From an uncultured Bacteroidota bacterium (lineage in GTDB: Bacteria > Bacteroidota > Bacteroidia > Chitinophagales > Chitinophagaceae): DNA of 64,000 nucleotides. The stretch is taken from NCBI GenBank assembly GCA_903824665.1, contig CAIJXT010000021.1, positions 1 through 64,000 on the forward strand. Reading direction: 5' to 3'. The position numbers were made by a program, and so were the translations under genes. The notes beneath the pieces are model-generated. The model was not told the origin of the DNA and did not search any database. It saw nothing but the letters and a program-made list of their open reading frames with translations. This document shows positions 5,717 to 64,000 of the stretch, one piece after another. The number at the start of each line of letters is the position of its first letter. Position 1 is the stretch's first letter.

Positions 5717-7957
5717 ATGACAGATTACGCAAAGAGTGTGGCCGCCAGGCTGGGATTGAGAACAATGGATGTGGCTGCGGTGCTGGAACTGCTGGCAGGT
5801 GGCGCTACAATACCGTTCATAGCACGATACCGTAAGGATAAGACAGGCGCACTGGATGAGGTGCAGATACAACAGATACAGGATGAAGCTGGCAGGCAGC
5901 AGGAGTTTGCTGAGCGCAAGGCATTTATAGAAAAGACGATAACCGAGCAAGGTAAGATGACAGATGAGCTTCAGGCACGTATAAACAAAGCGGAGGCTAT
6001 TACCGAACTTGAAGACATATACCTGCCTTATAAACCTAAGCGCAAGACAAAAGCGCTGATAGCCAGAGAGAACGGGCTGGAACCGCTGGCATTGCTGCTG
6101 CTGGAGCAGGGAGCAATAGACCCTGCAAGCGAGGCGGCTGCATACCTGAATGATAATGTGCAATCGGCAGACGAAGCACTGCAAGGAGCCCGTGATATAA
6201 TAGCAGAAATGGTGAATGAAGATGTGCAGGTGCGGACAACTATGCGCAGGCTATTTGAAACCAAGGCGGCAGTGCAGGCCAAGGTACTGGCTGATAAAGA
6301 GGCTGAAGGGATAAAGTATAGAGACTATTTCGCGTTTTCGGAGCCTGTTTCGAAGATACCCTCACATAGGCTGCTGGCGGTGATGCGTGGCTTTATGGAA
6401 GGTGTGCTGCGACTGACGATAGCACCGGACGAAGAAGAGGCACTCGCTCTGATAGAGGAATTATTTGTGAAGCGGGGTAATCTGGCGGGAGAGCAGGTGA
6501 AGAAGGCTGTGAAAGACGCGTACCGCAGAATGCTACAGGTGAGCCTGGAAAGTGAGTTTCGTACGGCACTAAAGGTAAAGGCGGATGAGGAAGCGATCAA
6601 TGTATTTGCGGAAAACTTGCGGCAGTTACTATTGAGCGCCCCACTGGGGAGCAAGCGGATTCTGGCTATAGACCCGGGATACCGTACGGGTTGCAAGGTG
6701 GTGGTGCTGGACGACAAAGGTGCGCTATTGGAGACCGGTCTGATATACATACACGAGCCCGGCAGGCTGATTGACGCAGAGCACAAAATACGCACACTTG
6801 TTCAAAAACATGCCATACAGGCATTTGCAATAGGTGACGGAACGGCAGGCAGAGAGACGGAACAACTGGTAAAGAAACTGAACCTGGGATTGCCGGTATT
6901 TCTGGTGAATGAAGATGGCGCATCGGTTTATTCTGCGTCTGAGATAGCCCGTGAGGAGTTTCCGGATCAGGACATCACGATACGTGGTGCGGCGAGCATA
7001 GGCAGGCGCCTGATGGACCCGCTGGCGGAACTGGTTAAGATAGACCCGAAAAGTATTGGGGTGGGGCAGTACCAGCATGATGTAAACCAGGTGCGGCTGC
7101 GTGAGCGGCTGGACCAGACGGTGGTGAGTTGTGTGAATGCTGTGGGAGTGAATCTTAATACAGCTAGTAAGCACCTGTTGTCTTATGTGAGCGGGATTGG
7201 CCCGTCGATAGCGGCCAATATTGTCGCTTACAGAAATGAAGCGGGTCGCTTTGAGACCCGAGGCGAGTTGCTGAAAGTACCCCGACTGGGAGCAAAGGCT
7301 TATGAGCAATGTGCTGGCTTTCTGAGAATAAAAGATGGATCGGATCCGCTGGATGCGAGTGCGGTGCACCCTGAGGTTTATGGGATTGTGGGTAAAATGG
7401 CTGCGGACCTGGGGGTAGGGGTGAAGGAACTTATAGGCAACGAAAAAATGCTGAAGGAGATTGACACCCGAAAATACATCACAGCGGAAACAGGCACACA
7501 TACCCTTCAGGACATACTTGCAGAATTAAAGAAGCCCGGACTGGATCCCCGTAGTGAGGCGCGGCAATTTGAATTTGCGGCGATTTATAGTATCAGCGAT
7601 GTACATACTGGTATGATCGTACCCGGAATTGTGACGAATCTGACCCGGTTTGGTGCTTTTGTAGATATAGGTGTGAAGCAGGATGGGCTGGTGCATGTAT
7701 CTGAAATTGCGCACAAGTATATCTCTGACCCGAATGAAGCACTGAAGCTGAATCAGGAGGTAACTGTAAAGGTTACAGAAGTGGATGTGGCACGTAAACG
7801 AATAGCATTGTCGATAAAACAGGCACAGGAGGCGCTCACACTGAAGGGCAGACCTGCACCGGCAAAGCCAAGTGGGCGGGAAAAGCCGGCAGAACCAGAT
7901 AAGCCAATAAGTATGAATGACGCTCTGAGCCTGCTAAAGAACAAATTTGGCAAATAG
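5717..7957 (+). CDS. tex: Tex-family RNA-binding transcription accessory protein
   Basis: 746 aa, a normal Tex length. Domains in order: N-terminal helical Tex region (about 1-310), a YqgF/RNase H-like domain starting at RILAIDPGYRTG (about 314), a helix-hairpin-helix region with SGIGPSIAANIVAYR (about 488-540), and a C-terminal S1 RNA-binding domain (about 631-705; TRFGAFVDIGVKQDGLVHVS). A Lys/Pro-rich tail follows. Tex is a cytoplasmic nucleic-acid-binding protein tied to transcription and RNA metabolism. The ATG at 5717 (MTDYAKSVAARLGL) was preferred to an in-frame start 35 codons upstream because family members begin at this point. The gene is convergent with the histidine kinase, with only 8 bp between the stop codons. 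Confidence 0.95.
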   Translation: MTDYAKSVAARLGLRTMDVAAVLELLAGGATIPFIARYRKDKTGALDEVQIQQIQDEAGRQQEFAERKAFIEKTITEQGKMTDELQARINKAEAITELEDIYLPYKPKRKTKALIARENGLEPLALLLLEQGAIDPASEAAAYLNDNVQSADEALQGARDIIAEMVNEDVQVRTTMRRLFETKAAVQAKVLADKEAEGIKYRDYFAFSEPVSKIPSHRLLAVMRGFMEGVLRLTIAPDEEEALALIEELFVKRGNLAGEQVKKAVKDAYRRMLQVSLESEFRTALKVKADEEAINVFAENLRQLLLSAPLGSKRILAIDPGYRTGCKVVVLDDKGALLETGLIYIHEPGRLIDAEHKIRTLVQKHAIQAFAIGDGTAGRETEQLVKKLNLGLPVFLVNEDGASVYSASEIAREEFPDQDITIRGAASIGRRLMDPLAELVKIDPKSIGVGQYQHDVNQVRLRERLDQTVVSCVNAVGVNLNTASKHLLSYVSGIGPSIAANIVAYRNEAGRFETRGELLKVPRLGAKAYEQCAGFLRIKDGSDPLDASAVHPEVYGIVGKMAADLGVGVKELIGNEKMLKEIDTRKYITAETGTHTLQDILAELKKPGLDPRSEARQFEFAAIYSISDVHTGMIVPGIVTNLTRFGAFVDIGVKQDGLVHVSEIAHKYISDPNEALKLNQEVTVKVTEVDVARKRIALSIKQAQEALTLKGRPAPAKPSGREKPAEPDKPISMNDALSLLKNKFGK

Positions 7958-7965
7958 GTGATTAC

Positions 7966-9360
7966 TTACTCTATTGGAAAGTATAGTCTGAAAATAGCGC
8001 CAGCTCCCGGCACGCCTTCTGCATCAATGTAGCCGTCGTGGTTTGCAATGATGCGCTGGCAGATTGCCAGACCTATGCCTTTGCCTTCGTACTGAGATTG
8101 TTCGGCATGCAGCCGTCTGAATATTTTGAAGATGTTGGATATATACTTATTGTCGAAACCAATGCCATTGTCTGCCACGGTAATGCAGTGAAAACGTTTT
8201 TTTCTTAGCGTAGGGCCGGCCCCCGGAATTTCGTTGCCAACAACATTTTCGTATTTAATAGCAATGATCGGGCTGTTTGCGTCGCGGGTAAATTTTAGTG
8301 CGTTGTCGAACAGTGCTCTGAACAAGATGGCGAGCTGTGGCTCGTAGCCCAGGACGAGCGGTAGTGGTTCTACTTTTACGATCGCGTCTTTTTCTGCAAT
8401 AACCTGTTGTATGTCGGAGACTATTTCGTCTATTACTTTGTTGAGGTCGGTAGGCTTCTTTTGTTCATCCGTTTTAATGAGATTGGTAAGGCTTACAAGA
8501 TCTGCGATAAGTAGTTGCATGCGACTGGCGAAGCTATTGATCCGTTGCAGCGTTGTTTTGGTTTCTTCTGCATTGTTTGTTTTTTTTCTTACAATCAGCA
8601 TGTTGCTGAACACCTGTATTTTGCGTAAAGGCTCCTGGAGATCGTGCGAAATGGCATAGGCTATATCCTGCAGTTCAAGGTGTGACTTTTTCAGGTCCGC
8701 AATTTTTGAGTTCAGCTCTTCCTGGTATATCATTCCGGATCTGATGAGCTTCATGAGCAGCACAAACAGGAACAAAGTAACCGTGCAGAAAATGAGGAGC
8801 AATGATTTGATTGTCTGCGTGGTTAGTTTTTCATAGAACTGCTGTTTTTTATATCGCTGAGACAAGAGAATATTTTCTGTGTTGTGCATGTCTCTCATTA
8901 TTTTGTTGGCTGCGATCATGTACTTGCGACCTTCGAAGTAATACGGAGATGCGACTTTGGATCGTGTAGAGTCGATATAATCAATGTTATCAAGAGAATA
9001 ATTGATACGGAGAGCGATTGAATTTTTGAGCGCTATGATGTTTTTGCGTTGTTCTGCATTGTCGGCAAGCAGTTTTTCGAGTACATACAGCGATGGGTAG
9101 ATGCTGTCAATTACGCTGTTCATAACCTTCAGGTAGGATGTGTCGCTTGTAAGAATATAACCCCGTTCCCACCTATCCATGTCTTTAAGAAAAACCTCCG
9201 TTTTGTATAGCGTCCGAATTACCCTGTTGCTATGCAGCAACTCGTCTGAATAGCCAGTGAACATGCTGAATCGGCTAATAGAGAACAACGACACAGCAAT
9301 CATTATTATGAACGATGCACCGAATGCAATGAAAATCAAGATCAGCTTCCTTTTTCGCAT
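7966..9360 (-). CDS. Membrane sensor histidine kinase with CHASE3-like domain
   Basis: 464 aa. TM1 is about residues 6-28 and TM2 about 186-206. The roughly 155-residue loop between them is helical, with the DMDRWERGYILTSD pattern typical of CHASE3 sensor domains. A short coiled coil leads to the H-box ISHDLQEPLRK (His239, the autophosphorylation site), then the ATPase domain with N-box DNALKF, G1 DNGIGF and G2 GKGIGLAIC. It should autophosphorylate and pass phosphate to a response regulator. No receiver or regulator gene is adjacent, so it is an orphan kinase here. The signal sensed is unknown. Confidence 0.92.
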   Translation of the reverse strand: MRKRKLILIFIAFGASFIIMIAVSLFSISRFSMFTGYSDELLHSNRVIRTLYKTEVFLKDMDRWERGYILTSDTSYLKVMNSVIDSIYPSLYVLEKLLADNAEQRKNIIALKNSIALRINYSLDNIDYIDSTRSKVASPYYFEGRKYMIAANKIMRDMHNTENILLSQRYKKQQFYEKLTTQTIKSLLLIFCTVTLFLFVLLMKLIRSGMIYQEELNSKIADLKKSHLELQDIAYAISHDLQEPLRKIQVFSNMLIVRKKTNNAEETKTTLQRINSFASRMQLLIADLVSLTNLIKTDEQKKPTDLNKVIDEIVSDIQQVIAEKDAIVKVEPLPLVLGYEPQLAILFRALFDNALKFTRDANSPIIAIKYENVVGNEIPGAGPTLRKKRFHCITVADNGIGFDNKYISNIFKIFRRLHAEQSQYEGKGIGLAICQRIIANHDGYIDAEGVPGAGAIFRLYFPIE

Positions 9361-58092: not shown

Positions 58093-58503
58093 ATGACAGC
58101 ACACGTAACCTATACAGGCGATCTAAGAACAAAATCCATACACATCAAATCCGGATCTGTTATCGAGACGGATGCCCCGGTTGATAATCAGGGCAAGGGC
58201 GAGCGATTTTCTCCAACAGATCTGGTGGTCGTGGCGCTGGCAACCTGTATGGTAACAACGCTGGGCATAGCGGCGCCCGTGCACGATCTGGATGTAGACG
58301 GCGCTGAATGTGAAGTAACTAAGATCATGACCTCTAACCCGCGTAAGATCGGAGAGATTGTTGTTGCTGTACGTTTCCCACACAGCAAACCATTTTCAGA
58401 AAAACAGCGAAGCAAAATTGTACACATCTGCAACACCTGTCCGGTGTTTGAGAGCCTGCATCCTGACTGTAAAAAGACGCTCAGCTTTGAATGGCCGAAA
58501 TAA
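58093..58503 (+). CDS. OsmC-family peroxiredoxin-like protein
   Basis: 136 aa. OsmC fold with the two reactive cysteines, Cys52 in VALATCMVT and Cys117 in CNTCPVF; a further Cys114 precedes the second. Family members reduce organic hydroperoxides using these thiols in the cytosol. Divergent from the 57165-57998 gene with 94 bp between starts. A near-match TAAATTTA lies about 20 bp before the start codon. The gene is not obviously part of the downstream uptake locus. Confidence 0.92.
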   Translation: MTAHVTYTGDLRTKSIHIKSGSVIETDAPVDNQGKGERFSPTDLVVVALATCMVTTLGIAAPVHDLDVDGAECEVTKIMTSNPRKIGEIVVAVRFPHSKPFSEKQRSKIVHICNTCPVFESLHPDCKKTLSFEWPK

Positions 58504-58907
58504 GCTTGATTTTTTGTTTTACGTTCTGACTCGAAACATCCGGCTTGTACCCTTTGCGGGAGCTGTTATACTTTAATGTTTTGTGGGTGTATTCCTCAGG
58601 ATACTCATCGCCCATTTATTATACCTGTGCCCAATAGTTTCTATTTTTTGCCAAATGATCGTTAAACTATTTTTGTTTTCAGCTATCGTTATTTTTTGCA
58701 GCAGCCGGGGATTGACTGGCAAACACATTGCTACAACCACGCAATTTATCCAATCATCAAAACTTACTTTTTTGTTTTCCCGATTCCGTCAATTCTTTTC
58801 CCGATTCTTAAAGGAAAGGAAAATGGCGAAGGCTACATTTGCATCATAATTCTTGCTCCCACCAAAGCCGCTAGCGCGGCGTTAGTATTTACCGATTGAA
58901 TAACGTA

Positions 58908-58928
58908 CAATACAGTATGCATCTGTGC
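58908..58928 (+). promoter_or_regulatory. Shared 21-bp element, copy 1 (upstream of HmuY-like gene)
   Basis: CAATACAGTATGCATCTGTGC; 19 of 21 bases match copy 2 at 62187-62207 upstream of the TonB receptor gene. The matching segment contains CAGTATG and GTGC blocks, and a TGAAAGC follows both copies within 15 bp. It lies about 200 bp before the start codon. It may be a common operator or promoter element. Confidence 0.5.
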
Positions 58929-59046
58929 TGACGAGCGCATTTGAAAGCTATTCGTTTCCAATTTTTGGCCGGAAGGCTATAAGGAACTGGTGTGCCACTC
59001 CGTAACTGTATGCTGCAAAGCTACAGCCGGGAGCAAGAAGGTTGTG

Positions 59047-59076
59047 GCCTGCAAACAGCAGGCGGGGTGTGCCGCC
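59047..59076 (+). promoter_or_regulatory. Two mutually exclusive leader hairpins
   Basis: Hairpin A pairs 59047-59052 with 59058-59063 (GCCTGC/GCAGGC, 5-nt loop). Hairpin B pairs 59061-59065 with 59072-59076 (GGCGG/CCGCC, 6-nt loop). They share bases 59061-59063, so only one can form. They end about 55 bp before the start codon at 59131. This is compatible with an RNA switch or attenuator; no known riboswitch class is assigned. Confidence 0.4.
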
Positions 59077-59130
59077 GGTAAATTTAAGAGACAAAAGGTG
59101 CTATTTAAAACCAACACACAAACCAACAAA

Positions 59131-60393
59131 ATGAACAAAGTAAAAGGAACACTAATCATGGGCATTCTTGCCCTTACGGCCGCCAGCGCAGGTGCGCAGG
59201 TTGTGGCCGATACGGTATCAACAGGCCCCTCGTACGCCAATCAGGTATGGTACAGTCTCTCTGCCGACGAGCAGGGAAACGCTGCAAAGAACAACTGGGA
59301 TCTGGCATTTGCAGCAGCAGGAGTCGGATCAGGTATCATGATCAATTCTATCATTGGAACTATGCTTTGGAACTATCCCAATGGCGATGTAACAGCTTGG
59401 GCAACATTGGATACGGCAGGCCTCAGTACCTGGACACCGCGCTGGAACGCTGATACATCGTGGGCGAAGGGTGCTATGGGGCGGTATGCCGACCCTACTA
59501 ATCCAAACGATCTGGATTGGGGTGTTTATAATATGACCACACATATGGTAACCGGAGATTCACTATACATAATAAAACTTTCCGACGGCAGTTATAAAAA
59601 GCTGTGGATCGAAAACCTGAGCAGTGGCACATACAATTTTAAGTATGCCAATCTGGATGGCAGCAGCCTGCAGACAGCAAATCTGGTAAAGGCAACCTAC
59701 GCGGGTAAGAATTTTGGGTATTATTCTCTGCAGCACAATACAGCATTGGATCGTGAACCACCTGCTTCAAACTGGGATCTATTGTTCACGCAGTACACCA
59801 CGTTTATCCCGTCTCCCTACACTGTAACAGGGGTGCTTGCTAATAATGGAACAGAAGTAGCAAGGTGTGGAGGGCTTGCAGATAAGGCGACTTTTGCTGC
59901 CTATTCATCTGCTTCGTTCTCCACTTCCATTAATACCATCGGGTATAACTGGAAGGTATTCAATGGGGCAGGTTACAACATACAGGACTCATTGGTGTAT
60001 TTTGTGAAGCCCGCTAACGGCGACATATGGAAGGTGATATTTACCGGATTTTCAGGTGGGTCAACAGGTGGATTCATGTTCACCAAAGAGAAGCTTTTTA
60101 CCAATACGAGTTGGGTAGCTGGTGCAACGGTAAAAAAGGCGAGTTTGGCACTGTACCCGAATCCGGCATACGGAGGTACTATACATCTTGTTTACAGCAT
60201 ACCGGAAGTGGTGCCTGGCGCGACCATCATAATCAGTGATATGACCGGTAGGGTAGTGCTGCGCGAACGGGCAGAAGAGCGCAAAGGACTGCACCAATTT
60301 CTGGTGCCCGCAACGCAATTGCTGCCGGGTACCTACCTGGTGACGCTGAGTGCTGCCTCTTACAGTATAAGTCAAAAACTTACCATTCAATAA
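59131..60393 (+). CDS. T9SS-sorted HmuY-like protein, candidate hemophore
   Basis: 420 aa. Start chosen at 59131 (MNKVKGTLIMGILALTAASAGA, a signal peptide); an upstream frame of 47 codons is Cys/Lys-rich and not signal-like. Two NWDL-type motifs (NNWDLAFAAAG near residue 55 and SNWDLLFTQY near 213) resemble the conserved WDIAF segment of HmuY-type heme-binding proteins. The C-terminus (about 338-420; YPNPAYGGTIHL...LLPGTYLVTL) is a T9SS type A sorting domain, so it should be carried to the surface. HmuY-like identity is an inference from these motifs and from the downstream chelatase-like and receptor genes. Confidence 0.7.
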   Translation: MNKVKGTLIMGILALTAASAGAQVVADTVSTGPSYANQVWYSLSADEQGNAAKNNWDLAFAAAGVGSGIMINSIIGTMLWNYPNGDVTAWATLDTAGLSTWTPRWNADTSWAKGAMGRYADPTNPNDLDWGVYNMTTHMVTGDSLYIIKLSDGSYKKLWIENLSSGTYNFKYANLDGSSLQTANLVKATYAGKNFGYYSLQHNTALDREPPASNWDLLFTQYTTFIPSPYTVTGVLANNGTEVARCGGLADKATFAAYSSASFSTSINTIGYNWKVFNGAGYNIQDSLVYFVKPANGDIWKVIFTGFSGGSTGGFMFTKEKLFTNTSWVAGATVKKASLALYPNPAYGGTIHLVYSIPEVVPGATIIISDMTGRVVLRERAEERKGLHQFLVPATQLLPGTYLVTLSAASYSISQKLTIQ

Positions 60394-60419
60394 CTATTTA
60401 TCAAAATTCTATAATTATT

Positions 60420-60445
60420 CTGCTGTGCCATTTATGGTGCAGCAG
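60420..60445 (+). other. Hairpin between the HmuY-like and chelatase-like genes
   Basis: CTGCTGTGCC and GGTGCAGCAG form a 10-bp stem with two G-U pairs and a 6-nt loop. No U-tract follows, so it is more likely an mRNA-stabilising or partial-termination structure than a full terminator. It lies 18 bp before the next start codon. Confidence 0.5.
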
Positions 60446-60462
60446 GCTATAAAAGTCAACTA

Positions 60463-61425
60463 ATGAAGAGTATTAAAGCAACTATCACGGCTATATTGCT
60501 GATGATAGCAGGAACAGGTGTCGTAGTGATGACAGCCTGTAATGAAAACGACACACCCGAAAACAAATCGACGGCCGGTGTAGCCAGGAAAACAGGTCTG
60601 TTATTGGTGAATCACGGATCGCGGTCAGAGACCTGGCGCAATGCCCTTCTGGATCTGGAAAAGCGTGTTACCGATACAATATTGGGCGCTGACAAAATCA
60701 GTGGAATTAAGACGGCATTTATGGAGTACACAGAACCATCGGTGGCCACAAGGCTGAAAGAGTTTGATAAAGAGGGCTATACTGATGTTATCATCGTACC
60801 TGTATTTCTTACGGTAAGCACACATTCGTTTGATGATATCCCAACAATAGTGGGTTTGAAAGAGGACCCCAAATCTATGGCGACATTAAAGATCGAAAAG
60901 ATAGAACGCTATGCGCCCACAGCACGAGTACATATTACACCCCTGCTGGATTTTGCAGACGTGCTGCAAAAAAATATATTGAGACGAACAGCGTCTCTCT
61001 CAAAAATGGGCGCTGATGAATCATTGATACTCATTGCTTATGGCGACCATGTTTATCAAAAAGAATGGACTGACCTATTGAATAAAGTTGGAAGCTATGT
61101 GCAGCAAAACACGGGGATACACACCCTCGCATATGGCTGGTGCGGGCACGTAGCGGGCTACAATCCCGACTCAACAACTGTGGCAATAAAGCGTGGACTG
61201 GCAGACTCTAAAAGGGCAATTGTAGTACCTGTGCTGGTAGCACATGACGAAATGTTTCAGGTAAAAATCATTGGGGATGGTATTGCGAAAGTACCCGATT
61301 CAAAAGAACGTGTGACCTATGTTGCTGATGCTATATTGCCCGATGAAAATGTGCAAAACTGGGTGGTGGATGTGGCAGGTAAGTATGCCGATAAAATACA
61401 ACGGGAAGGAGTATTAAACAGGTGA
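60463..61425 (+). CDS. CbiX/sirohydrochlorin-chelatase-like lipoprotein
   Basis: 320 aa. A lipoprotein signal places the lipid at Cys26 (VVVMTACNEND), so the domain sits outside the cytosol. The CbiX motif pair is intact: LLLVNHGSR (His51) and FLTVSTHSFDDIP (His121), the metal and tetrapyrrole ligands in this family. A second half (about 185-300) with AYGDHVYQ, YGWCGHVAG and VLVAHDEMF suggests a two-lobed chelatase fold. Cytosolic CbiX inserts cobalt or nickel into sirohydrochlorin; a periplasmic CbiK chelatase with a heme-transport link is known in Desulfovibrio. Here it lies between a HmuY-like protein and a PepSY protein. It may act on heme or another tetrapyrrole; the direction of reaction is unknown. 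Confidence 0.8.
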   Translation: MKSIKATITAILLMIAGTGVVVMTACNENDTPENKSTAGVARKTGLLLVNHGSRSETWRNALLDLEKRVTDTILGADKISGIKTAFMEYTEPSVATRLKEFDKEGYTDVIIVPVFLTVSTHSFDDIPTIVGLKEDPKSMATLKIEKIERYAPTARVHITPLLDFADVLQKNILRRTASLSKMGADESLILIAYGDHVYQKEWTDLLNKVGSYVQQNTGIHTLAYGWCGHVAGYNPDSTTVAIKRGLADSKRAIVVPVLVAHDEMFQVKIIGDGIAKVPDSKERVTYVADAILPDENVQNWVVDVAGKYADKIQREGVLNR

Positions 61426-61426
61426 A

Positions 61427-61999
61427 ATGGCGATAAAGAAATATACGAAGCTTAGAAAGCTGAACATAGCAACGCATAGAGACCTGGGTTACTTTTTTTC
61501 AACGCTTATTGTGGTGTATTGCCTTTCAGGTTTGGCATTGAATCATATTGATGACTGGAACCCCGATTTTGTGATCGGTAGAAAGGAAGTTTTCATTCGC
61601 CCGAACATGTATGCTGATAGACTTGACAAAGCGATGATTGACAGCCTTGGCAAAATGGTTGGGGAGACACAATACAAGGTGTATGATGTGCCTTCAAAGG
61701 GGCAGGTAAAAATATACTACAATAACGCTTCGTTCCATGTGAATTTCGATACGCACAAAGGATTGTATGAGCATGTATCGCGCAGGCCGGTTTTCTATGC
61801 TTCTAACCTGCTGCACCGCAATAGTGTAGCAGGGTGGAGATGGTTTGCAGATGTTTTTGCGGCGATGCTGATTGTCCTCAATTTAACCGGACTGTTTATA
61901 TTGAAGGGCAGGCAGGGAATTACAGGCAGGGGAAAGTGGCTGATTGCAGCGGGATTGCTACCACCGGTGATATTTTTTATTATTCAAGAATTGGTATAA
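61427..61999 (+). CDS. PepSY-associated membrane protein
   Basis: 190 aa. TM1 about 21-40, a roughly 100-residue extracytoplasmic PepSY-like region, TM2 about 141-158 and TM3 about 168-187. The pattern KLNIATHRDLGYFFSTLIVVYCLSGLALNH and later LLHRNSVAGWRWFADVFAAML match PepSY-associated TM proteins, which often lie near iron and heme uptake receptors in Bacteroidota; some relatives are ferric reductase-like. Starts 1 bp after the chelatase stop, so the two are almost certainly co-translated. Conserved His residues (His17, His35, His129) could bind heme, but this is inferred. Confidence 0.82.
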   Translation: MAIKKYTKLRKLNIATHRDLGYFFSTLIVVYCLSGLALNHIDDWNPDFVIGRKEVFIRPNMYADRLDKAMIDSLGKMVGETQYKVYDVPSKGQVKIYYNNASFHVNFDTHKGLYEHVSRRPVFYASNLLHRNSVAGWRWFADVFAAMLIVLNLTGLFILKGRQGITGRGKWLIAAGLLPPVIFFIIQELV

Positions 62000-62173
62000 A
62001 TCAAAAAACTTATCTGGGTGATTTGCAAGTTTAAGACACTCAAAAGCGGTAGCAGCGGGTATGTAATACAATGTGTTGTAAGCAATCAGATATAGGTGGT
62101 TTTTGCCACGCCGCGTTATCAATCAAATATGTACAGTATTCCGAATTCTAGAATCAGTTAAAGCTGGCCAGCC

Positions 62174-62194
62174 ATCAATACAGCATCAATACAG
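62174..62194 (+). repeat. Direct repeat ATCAATACAG, two copies
   Basis: Two exact 10-bp copies (62174-62183 and 62185-62194) separated by one base, overlapping the start of the shared element. Tandem sites of this size are typical of regulator binding. Confidence 0.5.
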
Positions 62195-62207
62195 TATGTA
62201 TCAGTGC
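62187..62207 (+). promoter_or_regulatory. Shared 21-bp element, copy 2 (upstream of TonB receptor gene)
   Basis: CAATACAGTATGTATCAGTGC; it differs from copy 1 at 58908-58928 in two positions. It lies 138 bp before the receptor start codon. Confidence 0.5.
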
Positions 62208-62345
62208 ACCGGAATGAAAGCCGTACAAAATCAATGCTGGCGCAGCACGTGACACTTGTGGTAACTATTCAGGAGTTATTTCTTTTTCTATGGCTGTTAT
62301 CTGCCGGACACAACAAGCTTACTTACAACAAACTTTTCGTTTTTC

Positions 62346-64000
62346 ATGAAAACTAAACTTGGTATTTGCAGGCTGATAGTTTTGTTTATTCTACTGTGCT
62401 ATGCCAGCACAACAGAGGCGCAGCATATTCGCCTGTTAACGCCCGACAGTCTGCCTGCCGCATCGGTGTGTGTTGTACTGAGCGCCAATCATACGGGCAA
62501 CGCTGATCTTGTTTTGGTGTCTGATGCAGATGGAAAGGTACTGCTGCCGGAAGCGGGGTACCCGTTTCAATTGCGGGTAGGTGGTATGTACTTTGAGGAG
62601 ATGCAGATGGTACTATCCAAGCCGGAATTTTATACCATTTTGCTTGCAGTCAAAGAGCTTATCATGCGTGATGTGGTGGTGTCCGGGCAATACGCTCCCG
62701 TGTCAACCGATAAAGCGGTACATCGTATTGAGGTCATAGACCGTAAAAAGATAGATGCAATGGCGGCACAGACCCTGCGCGATGTAATGACCAATCAGCT
62801 GGAGGTCAGGATTTCGAATGATGCTATTTTCGGCACTTCTATGGGAATGCAGGGCAGTCAGGCCTATGGTGCCGATCCGAAAATATTGATTGATGGTGTA
62901 CCCGTAACAGGCAAGCAAAACGGGGCAGTTGATCTGTCGCAGATCAATCTTGCCAATGTAGAACGCATTGAGATCATTAAGGGACCCATGTCAGTATCCT
63001 ATGGTACAGATGCCATAGCCGGAACAGTGAACCTGATAACGAAAAGAAAGATCAAACGTTCTGCAGAGGTCGGGGCCAGCACATACTTTGAATCAATTGG
63101 AACTTATAATCTCAACTTTACGGCGGGGGTACGAAACAAGCACCATGCGTTTGTGTTTGACGGTTTCCGAAATTTCTTTGCCGGTTGGCAACCAGACCTG
63201 GCTGCTGCTTTTTTGGATTTCAGCAAACGTCCGGCTGACTCGTTCAGAGTAACGCTATGGAAGCCACGAGCGCAATACCAGGGATGTGCTCAGTATTCGC
63301 TAACAACGGGAAAGACAAGCTACAGCTACAAGGGTGCCTATTTTTATGAATTGATTACCAGCCGGGGTAGACCGCTTGAACCATACAACGAAATGGCATT
63401 CGACAATTATTTTCATACATGGCGAAAAGACAATGCCCTGTTCATAAACAGCGACCTTGGCAAAGACAGCCACTTAACTTTTCTGGCAGCATTTAATGCT
63501 TACAAGCGAGTGAAACAGGAATCTGTAAATGACCTGACGACATTGAGCGAGACATTTACCGATGCTGCGCAGGATACTTCAAAGTACAGTGAGGTAAATA
63601 GCCGGGCAGCATACACAACCAACCGGGCCGGTGCAAGTCTGAATTTCGAGGTTGGTTATGATGCTAATATTCAGTACGCAAACAGCACACAAATCAAAGA
63701 CCGTGAGCAGCATATGGGCAACTATGCTGTCCATGGAAGCCTGGAGTTTAAACCTTTAGATCGGCTAACGATACGACCGGGTCTGAGGTATGGGTACAAT
63801 ACTCGGTATGTTGCGCCGTTGGTGCCGTCGGCAAATCTGCTTTTTTGTGCGTGGAAGAACTGGAAGCTCAGAACGTCCTTTGCTAGAGGTTTCAGGCAAC
63901 CGGGCTTGAAGGAACTGTACTTTGACTTTGTTGACGTTAATCACAACATACAGGGAAATTCATCATTGAAATCCGAATTTTCGAATAATTACTCACTGTC
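62346..64000 (+). CDS. TonB-dependent receptor, C-terminus beyond window edge
   Basis: At least 551 residues; no stop before the window edge. Signal peptide (about 1-26, ending EAQ). A short carboxypeptidase-like or beta domain (about 27-105) precedes the plug (about 106-235), with ILIDGVPVTGKQNGAVDLSQI and VERIEIIKGPMSVSYGTDAIAGTVNLITK, the classic plug motifs. The barrel follows. A segment near residue 517 reads FRQPGLKELYFDF, and later HNIQGNSSLKSEFS, resembling the FRAP and NPNL boxes of heme receptors such as HmuR, though with Gln for Ala and Ser for Asn. The substrate is probably heme or a related iron or cobalt tetrapyrrole. Confidence 0.9.
   Translation, partial: MKTKLGICRLIVLFILLCYASTTEAQHIRLLTPDSLPAASVCVVLSANHTGNADLVLVSDADGKVLLPEAGYPFQLRVGGMYFEEMQMVLSKPEFYTILLAVKELIMRDVVVSGQYAPVSTDKAVHRIEVIDRKKIDAMAAQTLRDVMTNQLEVRISNDAIFGTSMGMQGSQAYGADPKILIDGVPVTGKQNGAVDLSQINLANVERIEIIKGPMSVSYGTDAIAGTVNLITKRKIKRSAEVGASTYFESIGTYNLNFTAGVRNKHHAFVFDGFRNFFAGWQPDLAAAFLDFSKRPADSFRVTLWKPRAQYQGCAQYSLTTGKTSYSYKGAYFYELITSRGRPLEPYNEMAFDNYFHTWRKDNALFINSDLGKDSHLTFLAAFNAYKRVKQESVNDLTTLSETFTDAAQDTSKYSEVNSRAAYTTNRAGASLNFEVGYDANIQYANSTQIKDREQHMGNYAVHGSLEFKPLDRLTIRPGLRYGYNTRYVAPLVPSANLLFCAWKNWKLRTSFARGFRQPGLKELYFDFVDVNHNIQGNSSLKSEFSNNYSL

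Follow-up and report, generated by a model that had tools for sequence, protein, structure and literature searches.

Genes at the end of the window

The window analysed here is a stretch of 64,000 nucleotides from an uncultured bacterium of the family Chitinophagaceae (Bacteroidota; assembly GCA_903824665.1, contig CAIJXT010000021.1, positions 1 to 64,000), and its last part carries a locus for a HmuY-like protein, a SirB/CbiX-type chelatase with a putative export signal, a PepSY membrane protein and a TonB-dependent receptor. An earlier note, made from the sequence alone, had described these four genes in this order, and all of them are indeed open reading frames (ORFs) on the plus strand whose products match Pfam models over the cut-offs. 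It had also advised reading past the window edge, where the contig, which extends to 69982, holds the rest of the receptor gene up to 64607 and then the gene of a HmuY lipoprotein; the two genes after that lie on the opposite strand. The locus is composed as follows.

59131..60393, plus strand: HmuY-like protein of 420 amino acids with a C-terminal sorting domain (type A) of the type IX secretion system (T9SS), by Pfam matches
60463..61425, plus strand: two-domain class II chelatase of the SirB/CbiX type, 320 amino acids, with a putative N-terminal signal and lipobox Cys26 read from the sequence
61427..61999, plus strand: small PepSY_TM_like_2 membrane protein of 190 amino acids, proposed to be a metal reductase of the envelope
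62000..62345, plus strand: gap with the apparent remnant of a broken DUF6686 gene, from the by-eye likeness of short frames to a protein of another locus (L004)
62346..64607, of which the window holds 62346..64000, plus strand: TonB-dependent receptor of 753 amino acids with Plug and barrel domains
64609-65586 of the contig, past the window edge: second HmuY-like protein, a lipoprotein of 325 amino acids (PF14064, 63.9 bits, cut-off 27)

For the first gene the ATG at 59131 was chosen as start; the scans and the structure model used 59125, and residue numbers taken from them are 2 higher.

The chelatase and its PepSY neighbour

The product of 60463-61425 reaches 55.7 bits on the CbiX model (cut-off 22), and its predicted structure, which the earlier note wanted compared with CbiX and CbiK, is a two-domain class II chelatase nearest to SirB, with SirB, CpfC in its coproheme complex, the periplasmic CbiK and FetB of Porphyromonas gingivalis among the structure matches. 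The CbiX histidine motifs had been called intact, and they are: in sequence alignments His51 and His121 fall on conserved histidines of CfbA and SirB, and both are invariant in the 53 rows of the CbiX alignment (two rows being the window's own protein), as are Glu88/Glu91 (53/53). On the CbiK model PF06180 the protein stays below the cut-off (12.6 versus 26.2 bits), and neither FetB nor CbiK chains are among the eight PDB sequences matched by the chelatase profile at E <= 1. An N-terminal hydrophobic stretch and the lipobox column, with cysteine in 42 of 53 rows, suggest that the chelatase is exported rather than cytosolic; rows which by reading have no clear lipobox cysteine carry mostly Nitrospira, Verrucomicrobia and Acidobacteria labels, besides L019 and L053, which are labelled Bacteroidetes. 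Counted from the cysteine, positions +2 to +6 hold one or more acidic residues in 22 of 45 CbiX and 14 of 22 HmuY rows, and two or more in 3 of 45 and 8 of 22, respectively. As the script picked the wrong cysteine in several HmuY rows, an assignment of the chelatase to one side of the membrane by this signal was dropped.

A scan with the CbiX protein led to 52 loci, nearly all of them from metagenome bins, with labels of Bacteroidota and subgroups, Nitrospira, Chlorobi-type, Verrucomicrobia and Acidobacteria. In 51 of the 52, more than chance would give, a PepSY gene lies directly downstream of CbiX, often after a 4-base overlap or a spacer of few bases; ORFs alone gave this adjacency in 45 of 50 cases, and according to tblastn four of the five misses were gene-calling errors. 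The TonB receptor is present in 38 loci and HmuY in 27, 12 loci have neither of them, and several loci end at contig ends. The full order HmuY, CbiX, PepSY, receptor, HmuY is found in 10 of 52 loci by a strict rule and in 13 (adding L024, L029 and L038) if slight overlaps of tblastn ranges are allowed. The recurrence that had been expected for the four-gene locus therefore holds for its CbiX-PepSY part, but the full order is confined to a minority: the constant unit is the CbiX-PepSY pair, which receptor and HmuY often, but not always, join.

In a separate sample, 12 of 395 genomes of the phylum match CbiX at E 1e-10 or better. Besides the genome of the window these are three with strong matches, six that belong to family f18 and two with weak matches; none of 13 other sampled genomes of the window's own family matches. 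Regions were examined from nine of the 12. Two are new loci (L077, L078) in which CbiX and PepSY are accompanied by a receptor and a classical HmuY; L079 holds this set too and looks like the already counted L014. Four regions are from f18, one of them (L082) similar in look to L036; by the ORF caller, three of the four have PepSY beside a CbiX gene and none has HmuY. In the two weak-match regions the CbiX-like protein stands alone, with no PepSY or receptor nearby (L080, 6938-7885; L081, 6607-7554); its N-terminus is signal-like, and it adjoins a protein of about 1210 amino acids that we take to be oxoglutarate-dehydrogenase-like.

The PepSY protein itself (61427-61999) matches PF16357, PepSY_TM_like_2, with 52.9 bits (cut-off 27) and falls short on the PepSY_TM model PF03929 (19.9 versus 28.8 bits). 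Three histidines are conserved in an alignment of 48 rows in which the window's protein is counted twice: His17 (46/48), His40 (47/48) and His130 (48/48). FoxB-type PepSY proteins are described as periplasmic ferric siderophore reductases that carry heme on conserved histidines (PMC13038864; this and all further sources given by PMC number are cited from the part of each that was accessible). In L048, the sole locus without PepSY, the next gene (7898-9262) puts a protein with FMN_bind and Fer4_5 domains into the PepSY slot, as would be expected, in this single case, if the slot serves electron transfer. The PepSY protein, the most constant partner of the chelatase, suggests that reduction is a step of the process.

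We put the probability at about 0.5 that this is an iron-acquisition locus which, within the cell envelope, removes the metal from heme or a similar metalloporphyrin. The exported chelatase might instead work by insertion or exchange and load a scavenged porphyrin with Mn, Co or Zn, without harvesting iron. Loading with another metal has been reported for FetB and manganese protoporphyrin IX (Mn-PPIX), but the constant PepSY pairing and the flavin/iron-sulfur protein of L048 suit a reduction before removal better, and with the low CbiK score of the chelatase added we regard metal loading as unlikely. Binding without catalysis, in which the CbiX protein would be a periplasmic or surface carrier that passes on intact heme, is rather unlikely as well. 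In its favour, binding without coordination of the heme iron is described for HusA and for some HmuY proteins (PMC12106395), and Tyr193, Cys227 and His229, conserved in the C-terminal half, could be axial ligands; against it, the CbiX-type histidine pair and Glu88/Glu91 are kept in every row, and a carrier leaves the pairing with PepSY unexplained.

Additional chelatase-like proteins were noticed at some loci. Nitrospira-labelled loci encode, upstream of the receptor, an extra protein of 560-660 amino acids that matches our own CbiX model and is perhaps a doubled chelatase (L018, 2860-4737; L026, 176-2170; L028, 493-2181; L031, 40-1980); in L028 its Pfam matches to CbiX and ferrochelatase are all sub-threshold. 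The Chlorobi-type loci L036 (by its look the same as L082), L040, L041 and L085 have a row CbiX-PepSY-CbiX.

HmuY proteins, receptor and host genome

The 59131-60393 product matches HmuY (PF14064, 36.9 bits) and Por_Secre_tail (36 bits), each with a cut-off of 27, as well as the sorting domain TIGR04183 (40.5 versus 23 bits), and a SprA match of 517 bits in the own genome indicates that a T9SS is present. Its predicted structure is HmuY-like, with a tail that resembles those of the T9SS proteins PorU, PorZ and mirolase. Two Pfam stretches had hinted at tandem HmuY domains, which was dropped, since the model aligns as a single HmuY domain with insertions (residues 22-327). All 15 long HmuY proteins scanned, i.e., that of the window, 13 others upstream of CbiX and one before the receptor in L021, have a T9SS tail, and 12 of them match HmuY at E 0.01; HmuY proteins of classical size in L033, L077 and L078 reach 119 to 128 bits. 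The earlier note had proposed a T9SS-sorted captor in place of the usual lipoprotein. Tail and fold support a T9SS-sorted HmuY, but a HmuY lipoprotein is there, too, and its gene (start 64609) adjoins that of the receptor (end 64607) as in the classical Hmu operon. A published figure shows operons in which hmuY lies close to genes of T9SS and PepSY types (PMC12106395), and in Prevotella intermedia a HmuY adjoining a T9SS protein is iron-regulated (PMC10434189).

The receptor has a Plug domain (71.7 versus 23.9 bits) and, as stated before, FRAP-like and NPNL-like boxes. Similar boxes occur in the aligned colicin I receptor CirA, and therefore they are not tetrapyrrole-specific and no evidence of a heme receptor. 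Of 36 receptors with at least 600 residues (three shorter pieces were omitted), 22 have the histidine that stands between the boxes (His533), at a position where a histidine is important in HmuR; it is missing in Nitrospira- and Chlorobi-labelled receptors and in those of L014, L033, L048 and L053, four loci with HmuY. On the heme-receptor model TIGR01785 the protein, cut at the window edge, scores 72.3 bits versus 316.85. The placement by substrate that had been suggested is not decisive, since the solved sequences nearest to the receptor profile are CirA, then FepA-type, BtuB and heme receptors, so that the substrate cannot be read from the receptor. Beside the receptor lies an AraC-family regulator in L009 (9506-10402) and an ORF of similar size in L011 and L046.

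The position of CirA would also suit a locus for taking up copper, cobalt, nickel or a siderophore, in which the CbiX domain would bind metal, PepSY would be the reductase and heme would have no part. A TonB receptor with a PepSY protein is the plan of the CrtA/CrpH copper uptake system (PMC12914433, PMC13038864) and of the xenosiderophore locus BT2063-65 of Bacteroides thetaiotaomicron (PMC10434189). However, the HmuY family is present in 27 of 52 loci and twice in that of the window, and the accessible parts of the two copper papers mention no chelatase, which makes heme-free metal uptake quite improbable. Uptake and metal handling of a corrinoid, vitamin B12 or a precursor, has a very small chance. 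In its favour, CbiX is a family of the cobalamin pathway, the best models for the receptor include BtuB-type ones (75.5 bits on TIGR01779 with the protein truncated by the window edge, 211 bits on BtuB with the profile), and a gene row of Rhodothermus marinus with cbiX and hmuY also holds a gene annotated as a potential cobalamin-binding protein (PMC6987092), but the receptor is far below the BtuB cut-off of 599.7 and the own genome has no CobN. Moreover, neither the window nor the contig stretch gave any Rfam match above threshold, and hence no cobalamin riboswitch, an element that only part of such loci carry; the weak matches in L002, three in number, include no cobalamin element.

In the own genome both HmuY matches belong to the locus and CbiX occurs once, and there are no matches to CobN/HmuS (PF02514). 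HemH and URO-D are present, as is a FeoB-type match (196 bits); the organism thus probably makes its own heme, and would want external heme for its iron more than for the porphyrin. Among carrier genomes reached through the loci, CobN is present in 1 of 36, compared with 103 of 395 in the phylum sample, and URO-D in 24 of 36 (genome completeness not given); these 36 of the 52 loci exclude the Nitrospira, Chlorobi-type, Verrucomicrobia and Acidobacteria labels and L020, L045 and L054. Only 18 of the 103 CobN genomes are outside family f18, so that CobN is rare there anyway, and eight of the 12 CbiX-matching genomes (G005, G087 and the six of f18) also have CobN-family matches, at a guess magnesium chelatases of phototrophs. 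A mutual exclusion with HmuS is therefore not supported.

Two observations concern the surroundings of the locus. An OsmC-like protein (58093-58503, 46.2 bits) lies just upstream of it. L003, L004, L007 and L049 have an ORF of 105-108 amino acids between PepSY and receptor; the L004 protein, the sole one of this kind scanned, matches DUF6686 with 52.6 bits, and the remnant at 62000-62345 looks like a broken copy of such a gene.

Proposed function and comparison with known systems

We infer the export and membrane side of the chelatase, the redox role of PepSY, the substrate, the direction of the reaction and the fate of iron and porphyrin as follows. The T9SS-delivered and the lipid-anchored HmuY would capture a tetrapyrrole at the surface for transfer to the TonB receptor. 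Two periplasmic steps would follow, reduction of the ferric iron by the PepSY membrane protein and release of Fe2+ for FeoB by the SirB-type chelatase, which would be exported and work in reverse. The earlier interpretation, a chelatase at the surface or in the periplasm that removes the metal from heme, is partly supported: it is right in outline, the emphasis has moved to the CbiX-PepSY pair, and the HmuY lipoprotein has been added. The idea as such is not new, since iron removal from heme outside the cell has been proposed for IhtB/FetB of P. gingivalis (PMC10913741, PMC6460266).

Several points weigh against iron removal from heme at this locus. SirB/CbiX enzymes insert metal into sirohydrochlorin. 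In the stretches examined, several of them cut by contig ends, 25 of 52 loci have no HmuY and 14 no receptor, so that in some lineages the core may act on a different ligand. By its profile the receptor stands closest to CirA, FepA-type and BtuB, and the plan of TonB receptor plus PepSY is shared with the copper and xenosiderophore systems. The presumed His166 of P. gingivalis HmuY aligns with a residue other than histidine, in an alignment with offset numbering and the second site unaligned; other HmuY proteins use methionine or no ligand for heme (PMC12106395). Disruption of a cobalt chelatase gene of Bacteroides fragilis left utilisation unaffected (PMC6460266). Iron could also be released in the host by HemH acting in reverse; the heme oxygenase family PF01126 has no match in its genome, other heme-degrading families not having been searched. 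Finally, the CobN-family matches in eight of 12 CbiX-matching genomes mean that absence of HmuS is not general.

A wider reading is tentative and somewhat doubtful. An exported chelatase of the SirB type and a PepSY heme reductase of its own might form a reductive dechelation pair, and with it a further, independent way of removing heme iron outside the cytosol. In Bacteroidota the pair would be combined with HmuY captors, both T9SS-sorted and lipid-anchored, while Nitrospira- and Chlorobi-type lineages would reuse it with other receptors; in genomes like that of the host it would replace HmuS and heme oxygenase. The CobN counts and the Rhodothermus row lowered our estimate for this reading and raised that for corrinoid handling. 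What makes the pair attractive is that two adjacent genes, recurring under several phylum labels, would provide a candidate enzyme that is compact and apparently exported, together with the protein that probably donates its electrons; if true, PepSY reductases would be linked to tetrapyrroles besides siderophores and copper. No description of an exported SirB/CbiX-type chelatase paired with PepSY was found in the literature searched, which left most subscription papers outside and covered the accessible parts of sources. Release of heme iron without heme oxygenase has recently been addressed for HmuS (PMC12583661), and in P. gingivalis it is still called unknown (PMC13227078).

The sirohydrochlorin chelatases SirB, CbiX and CfbA are cytosolic enzymes of biosynthesis, whereas the chelatase of this locus has a putative export signal and stands in an uptake-type locus. 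The periplasmic CbiK of Desulfovibrio vulgaris belongs to the CbiK family, unlike the chelatase described here. In the Iht system of P. gingivalis a lipid-anchored chelatase beside a TonB receptor has likewise been proposed already; IhtB is CbiK-like by description, in contrast to our protein with its low CbiK score, and the system comprises a binding protein, a permease and an ATPase, with no PepSY or HmuY partner named in the accessible text. The hmuYRSTUV operon shares the HmuY lipoprotein, the TonB receptor and a chelatase-type subunit for heme iron, the reported heme dechelatase HmuS (PMC12583661), which is a large CobN relative, whereas here a small class II chelatase with a PepSY neighbour is found. 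For R. marinus, cbiX and hmuY are named in a figure legend as two of the genes downstream of Rmar_1080/1081, a passing mention in the accessible part of a glycosidase paper that names no PepSY or heme role (PMC6987092). The PepSY_TM reductases FoxB and CrpH, finally, share the PepSY protein beside a TonB receptor and the conserved histidines, while the protein of this locus has 190 amino acids, is over the cut-off for PF16357 and under that for PF03929, and has a chelatase as its neighbour.

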